IMG/VR virus record: IMGVR_UViG_3300043398_000189
Span: 1-42,730 of that record
Length of the DNA: 42,730 bases
Direction: 5' to 3' (one strand)
Origin: a virus
Part shown: positions 5,031 through 21,552 of the stretch, piece by piece
Position numbering within the stretch: position 1 is the first letter of the stretch
Layout of the letters: each line of letters opens with the position of its first letter
Program-made: the position numbers and the translations under genes
The notes under the pieces: model-generated
Seen by the model: the letters and a program-made list of their open reading frames with translations, nothing else
What the model was told of the DNA's origin: nothing
Database searches by the model: none

Positions 5031-5317
5031 ATATACGCAACTCCTGAGTGCCAGGTATAAATATAACGCACGTGGCTAGAAGACTAAAATATCCAGAGTG
5101 TAAAGATAATTACAGGCGAATATTTAAATTTATCATTGCCACAGGGAAGTTAATACCGGACTTAGAAATGCATATATAGAGATTCTCTTGAAACTGATCC
5201 ACTTGACCTGGTAGGTTTGAAGACGGAGCCCCTCCCCCACTCCGGGACTCCTTACCTTCAAGCTCACCGCAAGCGCTTCGCAACCAACCCACTCGGTACC
5301 CTCGTGTGTTACCAAGA

Positions 5318-5330
5318 CAGGGAAAACCGG
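5318..5330 (-). promoter_or_regulatory. GGTTTTCCCTG operator-like element facing the leftward arm
   Basis: On the minus strand CCGGTTTTCCCTG matches the elements at the two rightward promoters (GGTTTTCCCTAG at 8895-8906, GGGTTTCCCC at 5931 and 5952). It lies just downstream of TTATATATC, which could serve as a -10 for leftward transcription. I infer that one phage regulator binds all these sites. Confidence 0.4.
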
Positions 5331-5368
5331 GATATATAAGTTCTCAGAGAAAAAAGAGTTTTAAAAAA

Positions 5369-5512
5369 GCAGCCGAGCGCAGCGCCATGAACAGAGTCGA
5401 GACTCCTGAGTGGCCAGTGCCTGGCTATGCGAGACTCCTGAATAACCAGAGACTCCTGAGTGACATGTTACCAGTGCACTCGACTCCCCCCTCGCTGCGT
5501 TTATGCGGCTGC
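5369..5512. other. Nested inverted repeat with three iteron-like repeats (candidate replication origin)
   Basis: The outer arms are GCAGCCG-AG-CGCAGCG at 5369-5384 and CGCTGCG-TTTATG-CGGCTGC at 5493-5512. The inner arms are GAGTCGAG at 5394-5401 and CTCGACTC at 5479-5486. Between them GAGACTCCTG occurs at 5399, 5431 and 5449, each followed by ARTRAC or AGTGGCC. A fourth, shorter copy (ACTCCTGAGTGCCAG) lies at 5040. A-rich runs lie beside the outer arms (5350-5368 and 5520-5526). The position between divergent arms and the iteron-plus-palindrome layout fit a replication origin, but a regulatory array or RNA structure is also possible. Confidence 0.45.
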
Positions 5513-6046: not shown

Positions 6047-6274
6047 ATGAACGCACAAACCACCACCACCACCACCACCACCACCGCCCGCCAGTGTGAA
6101 GCACGCCGCTTTGGCGGTGGCAGTGTACGCCTTGGCGTATACACGCTGCGCCGATGGGCGCGGCTATCCTACCGAGACGGCGGTATTGCCGCCGTGATAG
6201 ATAACCCGTGGTACACATACACACGCCAGATCCCATGGAAGTGGGACCCGGCAGACCGTCGGGTACGCGTGTAG
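6047..6274 (+). CDS. Small protein with polythreonine run, first gene of rightward arm
   Basis: A 75-residue basic protein that begins MNAQ followed by nine Thr encoded by identical ACC codons. The rest is Arg/Trp/Tyr-rich (LRRWARLSYRDGGIAA, NPWYTYTRQIPWKWDP). The ATG has the leader CACTGGAGCACTATC, shared in form with genes at 6359 and 7159, which supports the start. No family recognised. As the first early product it could be a small host-takeover protein; this is inference from position only. Confidence 0.6.
   Translation: MNAQTTTTTTTTTARQCEARRFGGGSVRLGVYTLRRWARLSYRDGGIAAVIDNPWYTYTRQIPWKWDPADRRVRV
6059..6085 (+). repeat. In-frame ACC trinucleotide repeat (nine units)
   Basis: Nine ACC codons in a row encode Thr5-Thr13 of the first rightward gene. 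Length change by slippage would stay in frame and alter only the Thr count. Confidence 0.9.
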
Positions 6275-6291
6275 CACTCGATACCCGGTTC

Positions 6292-6354
6292 GCAGCCGTG
6301 TCTACGGGCACGGCTGCCTACCCGGTACGCGTGTACCGGTGTCCTGGAGGACAC
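6292..6354 (+). promoter_or_regulatory. Three stacked hairpins, the last enclosing the ribosome binding site
   Basis: Hairpin 1 is GCAGCCGTG paired with CACGGCTGC (6292-6317). Hairpin 2 is CCGGTAC, GCGT, GTACCGG (6322-6339). Hairpin 3 is GTGTCC, TGGA, GGACAC (6339-6354), which holds the GGAGG of the gene starting at 6359. Hairpins 2 and 3 share one base, so they may compete. The arrangement suggests control of translation of the downstream gene. Confidence 0.55.
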
Positions 6355-6358
6355 TATC

Positions 6359-7099
6359 ATGACAACTACAAACAACGACACACTCACAGCCAGGTTATTA
6401 ATCGACGCCGGTATCCCGGCACACAATCTGCCGGACACTGAGGCCACGGCTATACTCAACAGCCTGGGGATAGAGATATCCCCATGGCTGACTGAGCAGG
6501 GTGTGCCCTTGTGTGTGAATAATAATAGTGGGGACCTAGAACCCACGTTCAGGCTCACAAACGTGCCAGAGGGCCGTAACGGCGGGTTGCCCATACATTG
6601 GGCCAAAGCCGTACGCGCAACACGCGATGTGTTGTGCCACGCTTTAGGCGTGCCCAGCACTAAAGTCAAGGCGTCCAATGCCGCCGTCAGAAAAGCAGCC
6701 GCCAATCCGGCGCCTGTTAATCCGACAGCGGCGCCTGTAAGCCGCAACAAGAACGGCGTGATCACCACCCACAAGGGTGACGACGTGGCTGTTACGCCAC
6801 GTACGGAAATAGCACGCATGGAACAGTGCGTGAAGCGTAGCGAAGCTATGGTGCAAGAGCTTACCGGCGTGCTGCTCACGCTGGCAGATAGTAACGCCAA
6901 GCTGGCACAGTCACAGGCTAAGCTTAACGACGTGCTGGCTGACAGCATGGCTATGTTCTTCGTGGCACAAACGCGCCACACAGCAGCCGTGCAAGCCAGC
7001 CCTGTGGCTACACGCTTAGTCGAGCGCCTAGAAGATAGCAGCACAGTGGACGCGGAAATGGCGGAACTAGAGCGCTTGACAGCGCCTAATAACGCTTAA
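6359..7099 (+). CDS. Hypothetical protein with C-terminal coiled coil
   Basis: A 246-residue protein. The N-terminal about 95 residues look like a compact domain (LLIDAGIPAHNLPDTEATAI, IHWAKAVRATRDVLCHALGV). Residues 105-140 form an Ala/Pro/Val linker. Residues 145-245 are helical and probably coiled coil (EIARMEQCVKRSEAMVQEL, NAKLAQSQAKLNDVLADSMA). The start has GGAGG followed by ACACTATC. No membrane segment and no known family recognised. Confidence 0.7.
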   Translation: MTTTNNDTLTARLLIDAGIPAHNLPDTEATAILNSLGIEISPWLTEQGVPLCVNNNSGDLEPTFRLTNVPEGRNGGLPIHWAKAVRATRDVLCHALGVPSTKVKASNAAVRKAAANPAPVNPTAAPVSRNKNGVITTHKGDDVAVTPRTEIARMEQCVKRSEAMVQELTGVLLTLADSNAKLAQSQAKLNDVLADSMAMFFVAQTRHTAAVQASPVATRLVERLEDSSTVDAEMAELERLTAPNNA

Positions 7100-7158: not shown

Positions 7159-7401
7159 ATGCGCAAGTTTAGATTCGTTAACGTACGCCGTCAACCCGTA
7201 ACCCGCGCCGAAGAACAGGCGTGGGCGCACTGGGAGTGGGCAGTACAACACAGCACGGCGCCGTACGAAGAACAGCACGCCGAGTACAAGCTGTGTATGC
7301 TCTACTGGACATTGGGCGATTACATTCGCAACCACAAGTGGTACGCGCCATGGCTCAAGCCACAATTGTTCGCCGAAGCCGAGCGTACGTGGCACAAGTA
7401 A
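7159..7401 (+). CDS. Small Trp-rich hypothetical protein
   Basis: An 80-residue basic, aromatic-rich protein (NVRRQPVTRAEEQAWAHWEW, YEEQHAEYKLCMLYWTLGD, NHKWYAPWLKPQLF) that should be largely helical. The ATG at 7159 is chosen because the strong leader CACTGGAGGACACT ends just before it. An in-frame GTG at 7138 would read through the hairpin and is not likely. No family recognised. Confidence 0.65.
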   Translation: MRKFRFVNVRRQPVTRAEEQAWAHWEWAVQHSTAPYEEQHAEYKLCMLYWTLGDYIRNHKWYAPWLKPQLFAEAERTWHK

Positions 7402-7450
7402 CACACACCACCAGATAGCTGGTTCGCTGCTATGTGTAACAGCATGGCAG

Positions 7451-7497
7451 CCTACCCGGTATCGAGTGACACCGGACACACAGAGGACAAGACTGTG
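7451..7497 (+). repeat. Duplicated 5' leader, copy 1
   Basis: CTACCCGGTA, a GAGTGACACCGGACAC block and CACAGAGGACAAGACTGTG occur here. They recur in the same order at 9384-9424, upstream of an unrelated gene. Small insertions separate the copies. Confidence 0.65.
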
Positions 7498-9325: not shown

Positions 9326-9408
9326 CATAATACGCTACACTAGCTGGTAACGGGGGAGTGTCGTTAGGCGCGGCACTCTCCACTACCCGGTAGTGTCAAC
9401 CCGGACAC
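9305..9408 (+). promoter_or_regulatory. String of hairpins between two early genes
   Basis: TGTGGC/GCCACA at the 3' end of the 9077 gene is followed by GTAGC/GCTAC (9321-9337) and GAGTG/CACTC (9356-9379). Then come the 15-base palindrome CACTACCCGGTAGTG (9381-9395) and GTGTC/GACAC (9393-9408). The last two overlap and are mutually exclusive, as in a switch. The next gene's ribosome binding site follows directly. Confidence 0.45.
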
Positions 9409-9424
9409 AGAGGACAAGACTGTG
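9384..9424 (+). repeat. Duplicated 5' leader, copy 2
   Basis: TACCCGGTA, GTGTCAACCCGGACAC and CACAGAGGACAAGACTGTG repeat the leader found at 7451-7497. The copy here ends in the GTG that starts the gene at 9422. Confidence 0.65.
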
Positions 9425-9640
9425 AATATTTTTGGTATACAGGAGCCCTTAGGCCCGTCTCCGTATAGCAACATACACATAGGGCACACTCCTGACGGAG
9501 AAGAACTGTGCATGGTGTTCTATGCGACTATCAGGTTTTTGCTAAATCAAGACAATGCCGATTTGCGCATGCGCGACCCTGTCTGGGTTAAGTGGTGCGC
9601 AAGTATGTGCGACGCCCTGGAGCAAGCCGACAATGACTAG
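9422..9640 (+). CDS. Small hypothetical protein, GTG start
   Basis: A 72-residue acidic protein (IHIGHTPDGEELCMVFYATI, NADLRMRDPVWVKWCASMCD, ALEQADND). The GTG start follows the duplicated leader with AGAGGA 7 bases upstream. Its end overlaps the methylase start by 8 bases, so the two are probably translated together. It might be a small partner of the methylase, but nothing in the sequence shows this. Confidence 0.65.
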   Translation: MNIFGIQEPLGPSPYSNIHIGHTPDGEELCMVFYATIRFLLNQDNADLRMRDPVWVKWCASMCDALEQADND

Positions 9641-11155: not shown

Positions 11156-11560
11156 ATGATTCCTGATAGAGATAACTATCTCAAGTACGCCCGGACTAAA
11201 CCGGACGAGCAGACATTACGCGAAGCGGTAAATATCTTACTTACTGCTTTGCCCACCACGCACCCGAATAGCGAGATTTATACACATGCCGTACATGTGT
11301 TAGAGACGCTTTTGTGGGTACTTGGCGATCACGATACTAGCGAATGTTGTGCAAACGCCGAGTGCGACAGTGACTGTGTAGGTTGCCATAATCAGACGCC
11401 AGCACTTCTCGAAGGAGCTCGTCACTACGTAGGCAAGTCATCTCATTCTATACGTCGCAGCCAGCATGATACACAACGGGTTAAAAGGGAGCTTGTAGAT
11501 ATCTTGCGTGACACCCTTGCGCAGCGTCGCAATATCAAGCTCGTAGATCCAGAGCAATAG
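11156..11560 (+). CDS. Hypothetical protein with Cys cluster
   Basis: A 134-residue protein. The N-terminal half is helical (LREAVNILLTALPTTHP, AVHVLETLLWVLGDHD). A dense cluster CCANAECDSDCVGCHNQ (near 68-84) could bind one or two zinc ions or a cluster. The C-terminal half is basic and helical (QRVKRELVDILRDTLAQRRN). The ATG follows ACTGGAGGACAAC. A terminator hairpin follows 5 bases after the stop. Function unknown. Confidence 0.65.
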   Translation: MIPDRDNYLKYARTKPDEQTLREAVNILLTALPTTHPNSEIYTHAVHVLETLLWVLGDHDTSECCANAECDSDCVGCHNQTPALLEGARHYVGKSSHSIRRSQHDTQRVKRELVDILRDTLAQRRNIKLVDPEQ

Positions 11561-11565
11561 CTCTT

Positions 11566-11587
11566 GAGCGGCGAAAGCCGCTCTTTA
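11566..11587 (+). terminator. Hairpin terminator
   Basis: GAGCGGC, GAAA, GCCGCTC followed by TTTATGG. A 7-base-pair stem closed by a GNRA tetraloop with a short T-run. It separates the preceding gene from the structured leader of the AAA+ gene. Confidence 0.65.
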
Positions 11588-11588
11588 T

Positions 11589-11656
11589 GGCGGCATAGAG
11601 GTAAAGCGAACCTCGCTGTCTATACAGAGTAGCCGGTTGGATTCCGGCAGTCGCCT
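11589..11656 (+). ncRNA. Cloverleaf-like leader RNA upstream of the AAA+ ATPase gene
   Basis: The segment can fold as a small tRNA-like cloverleaf. The acceptor-like stem is GGCGGCA (11589-11595) with AGTCGCC (11649-11655), six pairs including one G-T. TA fills positions 8-9. The D-like arm is GAGG, TAAAGCGAA, CCTC. A short third arm is CTGT, CTAT, ACAG. The T-like arm is GCCGG, TTGGATT, CCGGC (5 pairs, 7-base loop). The anticodon arm is too short for a working tRNA and no CCA follows. It may be a tRNA mimic, a riboregulator of the ATPase operon or a processed small RNA. Confidence 0.45.
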
Positions 11657-11688
11657 TATTCCACTCACTGTGAGGACAACACACATAT

Positions 11689-12621
11689 ATGAGTACAGCT
11701 ATATTGAGCCCACCTGCTCTAAAAATCCCGTCTATTGTAGACCTAACGACAGTATTTAAAAACGTTGGGTACTACGCCCAGCGTGATGATATAAACGCCA
11801 TCAGATGGCTCTTGTATCTACCGCCCGAGTCTGGCGTAAAAGCGCTTCTTGTCCGGGGTTTGCCTGGTACAGGTAAGACATTCATGTGCGAGAGCATTAA
11901 AGCTGCCGGTGAAGATCTTTTTGGCAACAAGCGCGAAGTGGTCTATCTTTTCATGCTATGCAACGCCTGGGATAGCACAGAGCAAATGTTCCGCGGTATC
12001 GACGTATCCGCCGCTGTAAAAGGCGATCACGAAAACGTTGATACACCCGGGATACTCACACAAGCCTGTCTGTTATCGCTGGAAGGCAAGATCGTGATTG
12101 TCGTTTTCGACGAGATCGATAAGACCGAAGACCGCGCCCAGAATTTGACTCTGGATTTTTTGCAATACGCAAGAGCGCAATGGGCGCCTGGCCATTACGT
12201 GCAGGGTGACCCGAAAAACATCTTCTTCATAGCGACCAGTAACGATATGAAGCCGCTCTCTGGGGCATTGCAACGACGCTTTAGGGATTACGAGATGAAG
12301 CCACTACCCACTAAGCTACAAGTAGCAATAATCTCAGACGGATTAGGTATCGACAAAAATCTTACGGCTGGGATTATCGTAACGGCGCACAATCTCGCCA
12401 AGAAAGCCAGACGCGATCTCAGCTTGCAAGAACTGCGCAGCCTGGTGCAAGAGATTTATTATTGCAGTGACTGCCCGCACGATATCACAGCAATGCTGGC
12501 CGCCTGGGTATCTCGTTCGCACCGTTTCTACAACGAGACGAAAGCCGCTAGCGAAACTCTCGATAGTGAGATCAAAGCCTACAAGGCTAATGGTGAATTG
12601 CCTGCAAGCTGGAAACTCTAG
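11689..12621 (+). CDS. MoxR/CobS-like AAA+ ATPase
   Basis: A 310-residue AAA+ protein. Walker A is GLPGTGKT with Lys63, Walker B VIVVFDEID with Asp141-Glu142, sensor 1 FFIATSN with Asn185, and an arginine-finger segment RRFRD at 196-200. A helical lid follows. This is the layout of MoxR and CobS-type ATPases, which work with VWA-domain partners to remodel proteins or insert metals. The VWA partner is the next gene. It has its own leader with CACTGTGAGGACAACAC and a preceding structured RNA. All catalytic residues are intact, so an active ATPase is likely. What it remodels is unknown; a virion-assembly or host-takeover target is possible. Confidence 0.88.
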   Translation: MSTAILSPPALKIPSIVDLTTVFKNVGYYAQRDDINAIRWLLYLPPESGVKALLVRGLPGTGKTFMCESIKAAGEDLFGNKREVVYLFMLCNAWDSTEQMFRGIDVSAAVKGDHENVDTPGILTQACLLSLEGKIVIVVFDEIDKTEDRAQNLTLDFLQYARAQWAPGHYVQGDPKNIFFIATSNDMKPLSGALQRRFRDYEMKPLPTKLQVAIISDGLGIDKNLTAGIIVTAHNLAKKARRDLSLQELRSLVQEIYYCSDCPHDITAMLAAWVSRSHRFYNETKAASETLDSEIKAYKANGELPASWKL

Positions 12622-12638
12622 AAAGAGTAGAAGTAATA

Positions 12639-12666
12639 GGGGCACCATATACGGTGCCCCGCTTTA
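12639..12666 (+). terminator. Hairpin between the ATPase and VWA genes
   Basis: GGGGCACC, ATATAC, GGTGCCCC followed by GCTTTAT. An 8-base-pair stem with a weak T-run. It may be a partial terminator setting the ratio of the two products. Confidence 0.6.
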
Positions 12667-12685
12667 TACACTGTGAGGACAACAC

Positions 12686-14350
12686 ATGCCTATAGAATTA
12701 GACTACGAATTACTTAAAGAACTACTTGGTGATCACGGGCCCCAATGTGGGTGCAGTGCACACGAAGCGCTTGAACAAGAGCGCCAGCGGCAAGAGCAGG
12801 CTAAGGCGAAGCAAGGGCAAGAGCGACAACAAGCGCAAAACAAAGAGCCAGGGCTAACAAAGCCGTCAAATGATCCATCCGCCGAGCCAGACCAAGACCA
12901 GCCAGATAATAACCAGGGCGAGTCGGAGGATAAAGACGGCCAACAAGATCAAGAAAGCGGCCAGCAAGATCAAGAAAGCCAGGACCAGGATAGTCCCCAT
13001 TCACAAAGCCCTGAATCTGGCGAGGATCAAGACTCCAAGGATGGAGAGCAGGATAAGCCAGATAAGAGTGGTGAAACTTCCAGCGGGAAAGAGGGGGAGA
13101 AGAATAAGCCCGAGAAGCCCGGTGAAAAAGAGGGCGGTGATAAAACTCCGAGTGATAACTCTAAGCATGGCGGATCTCCAGGACGACCGGGACAACCAAG
13201 ACCCGATGATAACTCTAAGCATGGCAAAGGTGGTCAGAAAAAACAACCCGCGCTAAATAAACGGCTGCTTAATTCGCTAATCGAACCACCGTCAGAGAAG
13301 CGAATGAAGCAATACAGCGGCACACGGCAAGATCCTGAGCATTTTTTCAACACCAAGAATAACCAGGTTGGTGCTCTGGATTTAAACCAGTACGCACACC
13401 AAACCGCTCAGCTAAATATGATGCAGGTATACGACAGGTTTAATCCGCACGCCCAAGGCTCTGTGGGTTGGGGTTCGTGGGGTGGTAATGACCTGTCTGA
13501 CAGGGATGTAGCGGAGTTATACAACTCTCCTGACGTTGAGCAATTGTCTTACTGGATTTTAAAATTAGTCGAACACACCGTGGGATCTGGAATATACCAA
13601 TCGCCTCGTATTGACTACAAAAAGCTCATACACCAGATCTACAGTAAGAACATAAACCTGGAGCGCTGTGGACGGGAGGAAATGGAGAAGAAGCGACTGC
13701 TAATTATCTGCGATATCTCAGGTAGTACCAGCGCACTGTGTAATGCAATGGCGGCGGCGGCATATCGAGTCTTTGACAAAGACGACAGATGCACAATCAT
13801 GATGGTCTCTAATGAGACTATCTACCGGATCGTGGGCGGTGGTGTCACCAACGATGTTTTAAATATAGCCGAAGAGACAAACACTCGTATGGCCAACATG
13901 TATTCCGGGACATTCGGTGGTAATACCTCAAACGATAGAGCGCCTGAATTTGCAGCGATCTGGCGCGAATTACTTACGTATTTATCTACGAGATTCGTAG
14001 TGTCGTTTCACGATACCGATGGTGAGCAGGTAATGCGTGGTATCTGCGGCGCCGGTATTCCGCTTATCTGGATGCTAAACGCTTGCGCTACTAGTAGTGA
14101 GATGTCTGGCTTGAAAAACTATCGAGATTATATGCGCTACGCAGAAGAACAAAGACAACTTAATCGCCTGGATAAAGCGGCTGAATATGAGAAAAACGCT
14201 AACAATTGCAGGTCTTATGCACCGTCGCAAAAAATCCTAAACTGGGAGCGTCCGCCTATTGCTGTTATCCCAGGCGCAGACAAACCTGTTAATGCTATCG
14301 AGGCGATCAAGAAATATATATCGCACAACGAGGGGAGAATTATTTTGTGA
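12686..14350 (+). CDS. CobT-like VWA-domain protein with long acidic/Gln linker
   Basis: A 554-residue protein. The N-terminus has PQCGCSAHE near residue 20. About residues 30-190 are low-complexity Gln, Asp, Ser, Lys and Glu. Residues 210-320 are helical. The VWA domain begins near 335, with its metal site DISGS (Asp343, Ser345, Ser347), Thr414 in GGNTS and Asp443 in SFHDTDGE. The acidic linker followed by VWA is the layout of CobT, partner of the CobS ATPase, here encoded just upstream. VWA partners present substrates to MoxR-type ATPases. The Shine-Dalgarno leader is the same as that of the ATPase gene. It overlaps the small next gene as GTGA. Chelatase activity is not implied, since no large chelatase subunit is present. 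Confidence 0.82.
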   Translation: MPIELDYELLKELLGDHGPQCGCSAHEALEQERQRQEQAKAKQGQERQQAQNKEPGLTKPSNDPSAEPDQDQPDNNQGESEDKDGQQDQESGQQDQESQDQDSPHSQSPESGEDQDSKDGEQDKPDKSGETSSGKEGEKNKPEKPGEKEGGDKTPSDNSKHGGSPGRPGQPRPDDNSKHGKGGQKKQPALNKRLLNSLIEPPSEKRMKQYSGTRQDPEHFFNTKNNQVGALDLNQYAHQTAQLNMMQVYDRFNPHAQGSVGWGSWGGNDLSDRDVAELYNSPDVEQLSYWILKLVEHTVGSGIYQSPRIDYKKLIHQIYSKNINLERCGREEMEKKRLLIICDISGSTSALCNAMAAAAYRVFDKDDRCTIMMVSNETIYRIVGGGVTNDVLNIAEETNTRMANMYSGTFGGNTSNDRAPEFAAIWRELLTYLSTRFVVSFHDTDGEQVMRGICGAGIPLIWMLNACATSSEMSGLKNYRDYMRYAEEQRQLNRLDKAAEYEKNANNCRSYAPSQKILNWERPPIAVIPGADKPVNAIEAIKKYISHNEGRIIL

Positions 14351-18803: not shown

Positions 18804-18836
18804 ACAACACAAAGGACAACACAGAGGACAACACGA
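18802..18836 (+). repeat. Triple tandem repeat of the GGACAACAC leader element
   Basis: AGACAACACAA, AGGACAACACAG and AGGACAACACGA follow one another with a period of 11-12 bases, just before the ATG at 18839. Single copies of the element form the ribosome binding site of several other rightward genes (11156, 11689, 12686), so this looks like local amplification of a ribosome binding site. Confidence 0.75.
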
Positions 18837-18838
18837 CC

Positions 18839-19810
18839 ATGACTATTAAAAGAAAACACAGCAAAGTAACCACTATAAACGTGGGTATCGAAGAAGTTAA
18901 GCGCCAGCAAAACACTTCAGGTTTACAGGCGCTAGCTCCGATAAGTTCTATGCAGTACGAAAACGTACACAGAGAACTAACTCTCGAAGAAATGAAAGCA
19001 ATCAACCATTATAGAGCTATCGATGGCGGCTATCAAAGATCCCTGTCGCTTACACGCGTGGCGAATATTAGGGAAGATCTCAAAAAGCGTGGTGTTAAAA
19101 CAAGCGACTATCCAGAGATAGTCATTGCGAATATAAACGGCAAGTTGCAATGCGTCGATGGACAGCACCGGTTAATGGGCCATATCGAAGCGGGCGTGTG
19201 TGTGTTTGCGCACATCCAGAGTATGACCCAAGCTGAAGCGGTCCAGAGATTTGTTAGAGACAACGCATTAGCCAAACCGCTCAAGCGTAAAGATCTAATC
19301 GCCGCTAGTAATAACCCGCTTGCTACTCAGATACGAGCTATCGCTAAGGGTTTTGATATGAGCCAGATGCAGGCGGCGGCCTTCGTGTCTGGGTTGATAA
19401 ACAAATCGACATTGCCGATACATGATCCCGGCTTTGAACTCGACGAGCGGCAACAACATGCTGTGACTACCGCTCTAAATATCTGGACGAAAGACAAGCG
19501 CTGGCGTAATAAGCTACCGGCAGATATACTCAATCTAAAATCGAGAAGAGAATTTAAAGAGCGCCCAGAGTGCGCCTTCTCAGGAGTGTTAGCCTGCTGG
19601 TTGGTTGGTAAAATCTGCCACCGGAATATCCACAACCTGAACAAAGTTCTGTCTGAAGTGAAGATGCTCCGTGACGCAGACTGGATAAAGAAAAACCTAG
19701 GGAGTCTGCGCACTCTGGCTAGTGGTTATTCCAGTGAGCACAAGGGTGAACTGTTAGAATACTTTGATCGCAAAGTTCTTCTACCGGCATACAAGGACAA
19801 GCTGAATTAA
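18839..19810 (+). CDS. ParB/sulfiredoxin-like (DGQHR) domain protein
   Basis: A 323-residue protein. Residues 60-145 contain GGYQRSLSLTRVANIREDLK and VDGQHRLMGHIEAGV (Asp107-Gly-Gln-His110-Arg111), the core of ParB-like and DGQHR nuclease/ATP-binding domains, followed by a helical region. Proteins of this type bind or cut DNA, or couple nucleotide hydrolysis to DNA positioning. There is no ParA partner, so plasmid-type partition is unlikely. It lies between Gam-like and RuvC-like genes and probably acts in DNA processing or transcription. The last 120 residues are basic and helical with no family recognised. Confidence 0.7.
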   Translation: MTIKRKHSKVTTINVGIEEVKRQQNTSGLQALAPISSMQYENVHRELTLEEMKAINHYRAIDGGYQRSLSLTRVANIREDLKKRGVKTSDYPEIVIANINGKLQCVDGQHRLMGHIEAGVCVFAHIQSMTQAEAVQRFVRDNALAKPLKRKDLIAASNNPLATQIRAIAKGFDMSQMQAAAFVSGLINKSTLPIHDPGFELDERQQHAVTTALNIWTKDKRWRNKLPADILNLKSRREFKERPECAFSGVLACWLVGKICHRNIHNLNKVLSEVKMLRDADWIKKNLGSLRTLASGYSSEHKGELLEYFDRKVLLPAYKDKLN

Positions 19811-21240: not shown

Positions 21241-21274
21241 ACAGAACGCCCCGGTTTATCTGGGGCGTTTCTGT
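21241..21274. terminator. Bidirectional terminator between converging arms
   Basis: AACGCCCC (21245-21252) pairs with GGGGCGTT (21262-21269), extended past one bulged T by ACAG/CTGT. On the plus strand it is followed by TTTGG, on the minus strand by GACGC. It ends both arms. The TAA of the last leftward gene (21258-21256) lies in the loop, so the leftward mRNA ends almost at its stop codon. Confidence 0.75.
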
Positions 21275-21552
21275 TTGGCGTCTTTCAGCGCCTCAAAGAA
21301 CCAGCCAACAAGAGGGGAAATGATCAGGCCAAGTAGCCAGTCATGAATTACATAGGGTTTAGAGTTTACCTGCGCCCAAAAATCAAAAACGACAACAAAG
21401 AGAGCAAGGGTGTAACTAAGCGCGAGGGAGGTCTTGTACCCGAGCCGGATAAGATTGCCGCGCCGTGCGGTGCTGATTGTATCCAGTACATTGCCACCCA
21501 TGGTAGTAGGGCTATCGTCAGCGCCACTAGGAAGTGCATGATCTGCCTCCAT
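21256..21552 (-). CDS. Small membrane protein, holin candidate
   Basis: A 98-residue protein with two hydrophobic segments, residues 41-60 (TSLALSYTLALFVVVFDFWA) and 71-88 (DWLLGLIISPLVGWFFEA), and a basic C-terminus (KDAKQKRPR). Two membrane helices plus a charged tail near the lysin gene fit a class II holin, which forms the hole that lets the lysin or its activity reach the cell wall. GAGGG precedes the ATG. It is the last gene of the late operon, and its stop is in the terminator loop. Confidence 0.6.
   Translation of the reverse strand: MEADHALPSGADDSPTTMGGNVLDTISTARRGNLIRLGYKTSLALSYTLALFVVVFDFWAQVNSKPYVIHDWLLGLIISPLVGWFFEALKDAKQKRPR

Follow-up and report, generated by a model that had tools for sequence, protein, structure and literature searches.

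The leader of a MoxR-type AAA ATPase gene in the viral record IMGVR_UViG_3300043398_000189 carries a tRNA-like cloverleaf that lacks decoding parts, and that is very probably tRNA-derived or tRNA-shaped. We propose, with a probability of about 0.4, that it descends from a tRNA and now acts as the 5′ leader of an operon encoding the ATPase and a VWA-like partner. All 42,730 bases of the record (GC 0.50; hereafter the window) were analyzed; the right side has head, portal, and terminase genes and the left side early-type genes. The major capsid protein is a distant relative (~30% identity) of those of Myxococcus phages Mx8 and Mx9 and Stenotrophomonas phage BUCT555.

The element lies wholly within the 128-nt gap between the end of a small gene at 11560 and the ATPase gene start at 11689, and the cloverleaf fills nearly the whole space from an upstream hairpin to the ribosome site, which is 15 nt downstream (Table 1). 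A preliminary description had placed it between a terminator and the ribosome site; this position is correct and the 7-pair GAAA hairpin is real, but the tail is only TTTAT and a terminator scan makes no call there, and the hairpin is at best a weak terminator. The small upstream gene has no PHROG or Pfam match, and the partner gene has no Pfam hit. The ribosome site of the ATPase gene falls in an 18-base repeat, CACTGTGAGGACAACACA, found identically at 11666-11683 and, before the partner gene, at 12669-12686; GAGGACA sites resembling this repeat are also present at 6344, 7147, 7478, 9405, 11144, and 18807-18845. The ATPase/partner pairing also occurs in plasmids of Gloeobacter, Thermovibrio, and haloarchaea, and we note that the pair (11689-14350) is here carried on a phage genome, the nearest pairs being plasmid and distant viral ones.

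Table 1. Features of the ATPase leader and its flanking genes
Feature	Position	Strand	Basis or remark
Upstream gene, function unassigned	11156..11560	+	ORF opens 11114; likely start ATG 11156 after GGAGGACAAC
7-pair hairpin, GAAA loop, weak T tail	11566..11583	+	Sequence, folding; terminator role uncertain
tRNA-like cloverleaf	11589..11655	+	MFE fold; R3 23.4 bits; RF00005 18.4 bits
Acceptor-like stem, 5′ strand GGCGGC, then A7, T8, A9	11589..11594	+	Fold, sequence
Second arm GAGGT-AAAGCGA-ACCTC, D-arm position	11598..11614	+	Fold, sequence
Third arm CTGT-CTAT-ACAG, without anticodon loop	11616..11627	+	Fold, sequence
T-like arm GCCGG-TTGGATT-CCGGC	11632..11648	+	Rfam alignment, sequence
Acceptor-like stem, 3′ strand GTCGCC, then discriminator-like T	11650..11656	+	Sequence
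Shine-Dalgarno-like GTGAGGA	11670..11676	+	Within 18-base repeat 11666-11683
MoxR-type AAA ATPase gene	11689..12621	+	Pfam AAA_5 E 2.7e-12; MoxR family relatives
Partner gene, VWA-like	12686..14350	+	Synteny; weakly similar to MoxR partners

When positions 11589-11656 were read base by base, the four helices that had been described in tRNA order were all found, both in the sequence and in the minimum free energy (MFE) fold. The acceptor-like stem (11589-11594/11650-11655) has the six pairs expected from that description, one of them G-U, with an open A-A at pair seven, and is followed by the TA reported at positions 8 and 9. The second arm can be drawn with 4 pairs, GAGG(T)/(A)CCTC, and a 9-base loop, as had been claimed, but the MFE instead closes a fifth pair and leaves a 7-base loop. 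As in a tRNA, the acceptor, D, and T helices come in order, and T8 and a 7-base T loop are present. The third arm, correctly described as too short to decode, has 4 pairs and the tetraloop CTAT, rather than the 5-pair stem and 7-base anticodon loop of a tRNA. The T-like arm is perfectly paired (5 pairs, 7-base loop) and keeps T54, T55, G57, and A58, with C56 changed to G; CCA is absent in register 3′ of the element, again as first reported, the discriminator-like T being followed by TATTCCA.

The preliminary description had named folding in favor of another structure as a refutation. The cloverleaf is the MFE of the 68-mer alone, at −27.6 kcal/mol and with 63% of the ensemble (z −2.93; 1 of 200 shuffles as good), and also of 11555-11700, which spans the leader and the upstream hairpin. 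Arm probabilities are 0.63 to 0.99 in native contexts of up to 260 nt and 0.23 to 0.98 in a 600-nt context, a drop that is usual in long folds; when the context is truncated to 11580-11660, the upstream hairpin is cut and a different fold is therefore preferred. At the elbow, as read from the sequence, G18 and U55 are present, and C19 and G56 could pair, such that the G19-C56 pair of tRNAs appears swapped. The tertiary signatures are incomplete (T14 rather than A14, A48 rather than a pyrimidine, and A11-T24 rather than Y-R), which counts against the leader reading.

Other parts of the window are also structured. Three plus-strand leaders (6268-6362, 7400-7482, and 9330-9432) are strongly folded, with z values of −5.1, −4.1, and −3.0, respectively, and have a common motif, in which GATA/CTA.C.GG is followed by a long variable hairpin, CTACCCGGTA, a CCGG farther downstream, and a GAGGACA-type ribosome site. 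The 53-mers at 6275-6327 and 7409-7461 are 75% identical. The outer stems of the motif seem to covary; the two of the three leaders that were searched have no Rfam match, and the motif is possibly a repeated leader element of the phage. In addition, positions 5040-5472 contain repeated ACTCCTGAGTG units (families D3 and D5), and a very stable hairpin at 21241-21275 (z −7.1) between convergent gene blocks is probably a two-way terminator.

The element is not a tRNA gene, because it scores below the Rfam cut-off, is not called by ARAGORN, and has neither an anticodon loop nor CCA. It matches the full length of the Rfam tRNA model (RF00005) below the gathering cut-off of 29 bits, and nothing reaches a gathering threshold; the E value of 0.14 applies to 181 bases searched with 4,227 families, and corresponds by arithmetic to ~0.008 for one family in one 42.7-kb window. 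Covariance models of tRNA-Cys (R1) and of other isotypes (R2) give 25.1 and 29.0 bits, respectively, but their training tRNAs were partly picked for likeness to the element, and we therefore relied on a third model (R3), built from 20 class-I tRNAs chosen independently of it. With R3, the element is the sole real match in the window (23.4 bits, E 1.7e-5), the next best reaching 7.2 bits. The best full-length background score in 124 kb of other loci is 11.2 bits, excluding tRNAs and special tRNA-like cases, and that in 134 kb of three phages is 9.2 bits, apart from a match in the Mx9 integrase gene, whereas real tRNAs in the compared loci mostly score 34 to 84 bits, with two class II cases near 25 to 26. 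The element thus scores between background and working tRNAs, in the range of degenerate tRNAs. A cloverleaf scanner, whose grammar was written after the element had been seen, found the observed score in 1 of 2,880 dinucleotide-shuffled strands. The earlier claim of a tRNA-like RNA in the ATPase gene leader is upheld, well above background and without decoding parts.

Some features point to tRNA-Cys as a possible ancestor. Positions 1-10 and 66-73, comprising the acceptor strands, T8-A9-G10, and the discriminator, match common bacterial tRNA-Cys genes at 17 of 18 positions (GGCGGCATAG and GTCGCCT, the last base being U73), including U73 itself and, at the corresponding step, the G-U pair. The probability that a random acceptor stem is equally close to some tRNA of the set is 0.0004 to 0.001, a value flattered by the way in which the Cys set was retrieved. 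Moreover, the tRNA-Cys anticodon stem GAGGT/ACCTT resembles the second arm of the element, GAGGT/ACCTC, as would result from a deletion of the D arm, and this arm can equally be read as a Cys-type anticodon stem or as a D arm. The element differs from tRNA-Cys genes in having no GCA anticodon, no CCA, and G56 in the T loop. Given the higher score of the element with the non-Cys model, we treat descent from tRNA-Cys as a lead only.

How might such an element act? The most likely descent would be from a phage-borne tRNA gene to a non-decoding cloverleaf, which could then shield the ribosome site from upstream sequence and promote translation, as suggested by precedent in vitro: cis-tRNAs placed upstream of a Shine-Dalgarno sequence increase translation 2- to 6.3-fold, nearly independently of ACCA (PMC9142559). 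In addition, host RNase P may cut between U11588 and G11589, giving the operon mRNA its own 5′ end. Known RNase P substrates include phage C4 RNA, M3 RNA, and T4 gene 32 mRNA (PMC11143913), and the element has 6 + 5 stacked acceptor/T pairs, where a substrate has about 12, G11589-C11655 as the G1-C72 equivalent, and T11588 at −1; it has no 3′ RCCA, which argues against efficient cleavage. These cis-tRNA and RNase P precedents are why we favor a tRNA-derived structured leader, together with the autonomous fold, the tRNA character above background, the position, and the similar leader of the related virus G002 (below). The place upstream of an open reading frame is itself weak evidence for leader function, because phages often carry tRNA genes between open reading frames.

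No close relatives were found by DNA and protein searches of a phage collection with the ATPase, the partner, and the leader, or by scans of viral contigs with four window proteins. A profile of three ATPases led to three viral contigs with best segments 31 to 38% identical, and no other route reached relatives; the MoxR/VWA relatives that were found are only ~26 to 38% identical in protein. The ATPase leaders of L011, L012, and L016 to L019 were folded and none forms a cloverleaf, that of L016 giving a hairpin and a 9-pair stem; this lack of a homologous leader among the relatives found counts against the leader reading. Of the three related viral contigs, two contain tRNA-like elements according to R3 scans of the whole records. 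One of these, virus G002, is distantly related to the window virus (ATPase 35% identical over the best segment) and has an element scoring 21.9 bits with a 7-pair acceptor, a perfect 5-pair T arm, no normal anticodon arm, and an ATG 38 nt on. It also has a near-canonical tRNA (L065:1501-1577; 56 bits), in which the acceptor, D, and T arms are canonical and which has an ATG 25 nt on; its anticodon stem, GGACAG-GCGGTATTACC-CTGTC, closes an abnormal 11-base loop, and ARAGORN calls it tRNA-Stop (tta). This tRNA is possibly an ochre suppressor or a non-decoding tRNA. Tyrosine and serine integrases (PF00589 and PF00239) were detected in neither the window nor G002.

The second contig, virus G001, has a degenerate element at L016:823-892 (26.1 bits with R3) that is enclosed by an outer helix, CCGTGTGGC/GCCACACGG, and is followed, after 173 nt, by a phage integrase gene. 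This is likely an attachment site (attP), and we set it aside as support for the leader reading on account of the integrase gene that adjoins it downstream. The R3 match in the Mx9 integrase gene (31.2 bits; L073:20170-20229, minus strand) is inside the coding sequence and is consistent with an attP inside int. The supporting comparison is one related virus, G002, not three. Pattern searches contributed no further examples: an exact T-arm pattern matched 8 contigs, with the contexts unrelated except for one tRNA-Pro call by ARAGORN; a tertiary-loop pattern gave three matches in one conserved sequence without a cloverleaf fold; and with a tRNA-Cys-like pattern with a free middle, all 18 matches were ARAGORN tRNAs (17 Cys and 1 Met) and none was a non-decoding relative. 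A broader proposal, that a phage group uses tRNA-like cloverleaves lacking an anticodon arm as mRNA leaders for particular genes, seems unlikely to us at present; such leaders, seen before the MoxR ATPase operon and before other genes in the related virus, would then serve naturally as cis-tRNA enhancers of translation or as signals for RNase P processing.

The main rival to the leader reading is that the element is a functionless relic, a phage tRNA gene, perhaps for tRNA-Cys, that is degenerating in the gap between two genes after loss of its anticodon arm, which we consider possible though somewhat doubtful. Degenerate tRNA-like sequences with scores in the same range do occur near phage tRNA genes (L049:3385-3463, R3 21.0 bits), pseudo-tRNAs are annotated in S-CBWM1 and B23, and the acceptor and discriminator are those of tRNA-Cys at 17/18 positions. 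However, 19 of the 20 pairs in the stems (7 in the acceptor, 4 each in the second and third arms, and 5 in the T arm) are intact while the loops and anticodon arm have been rewritten. The probability of keeping at least 19 of 20 pairs is 0.003 or 0.0002 if each site has changed neutrally at 25% or 35%, respectively, values that are biased in that the element was noticed by its folding. That an ordinary structured leader resembles a tRNA by chance is improbable. The leaders at 6268-6362 (z −5.1) and 7400-7482 (z −4.1) are more stable than the element relative to shuffles, its z is surpassed in several stretches of the window, and many windows are scanned in projects of this type; against this, the T-loop letters TT.GA and the acceptor are tRNA-like beyond pairing alone, no ordinary background sequence has an R3 score comparable to that of the element (E 1.7e-5 in the window), and its cloverleaf score was reached by just one of the 2,880 shuffled strands.

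The preliminary description had also offered a leader switch and a processed small RNA as interpretations. In a riboswitch-like leader, the cloverleaf would alternate with pairing of the acceptor 3′ strand to the Shine-Dalgarno sequence, much as the yjdF riboswitch acts (PMC9142559), and some partial transcripts (ends 11680-11692) do prefer pairing of CCUUA with UGAGG of the ribosome site. In the full leader, however, computed Shine-Dalgarno accessibility is the same (0.56 to 0.58) in folds that permit, enforce, or prohibit the acceptor stem, and this independence from the acceptor stem disfavors the switch, as does the lack of any Rfam riboswitch match at E ≤ 10 (4,227 families); we consider it very improbable. 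No more probable is a small RNA that RNase P and a 3′ nuclease would release and that would act in trans as a tRNA mimic on host tRNA enzymes or defense nucleases; the cloverleaf has G1-C72 and a U at −1, and mascRNA and menRNA are products of this kind in animals (PMC11693755), but the element has no CCA in register and does not match the mascRNA model. Least probable of all, and barely credible here, is an attachment site that contains part of a host tRNA gene. The G001 element 173 nt before an integrase gene and the Mx9 one inside its integrase gene speak for this, although the window has no tyrosine or serine recombinase (PF00589 and PF00239 are absent), which disfavors the idea. An attP normally contains the unbroken 3′ half of a functional tRNA gene, whereas this element has no anticodon arm and has G56 in its T loop.

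By the tests applied, the element is outside the tRNA, yjdF, and mascRNA families, and among known systems it would appear to work, or at least to look, like a cis-tRNA leader. The yjdF riboswitch and engineered cis-tRNA leaders (PMC9142559) similarly have a tRNA-like four-way junction directly before a bacterial ribosome site, and tRNA-related sequence that is not used for decoding. Compared with yjdF, the element has no match to the family model (E ≤ 10, 4,227 families) and no purine-rich J1/2 pocket, which in yjdF binds azaaromatics, is in a phage operon, and in our computations occludes the Shine-Dalgarno sequence only transiently in partial transcripts, without coupling to the fold. Degenerate and pseudo-tRNA genes of phages share its score range, cloverleaf, and intergenic position, but it differs from them in its four intact stems, the 4-pair tetraloop arm at the anticodon position, and the adjoining ribosome site. 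The mascRNA and menRNA family (RF01684; PMC11693755) has in common with it the cloverleaf, tRNA-like acceptor and T arms, and a non-decoding arm at the anticodon position; these are animal nuclear RNAs from the 3′ ends of long noncoding RNAs, and the element does not match RF01684 at E ≤ 10. C4 antisense RNA, M3 RNA, and T4 gene 32 mRNA (PMC11143913) likewise have tRNA-like structure in a non-tRNA phage transcript, but are cleaved by RNase P, whereas the element has no RCCA and is a putative substrate.

If the fold is maintained, the ATPase leader would be a natural phage case of a cis-acting tRNA-shaped leader, examples of which have so far been mainly the yjdF riboswitch and engineered mRNAs. 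It would also suggest that phage tRNA genes can be converted to regulatory leaders, and that some annotated phage 'pseudo-tRNAs' may be working RNA elements.
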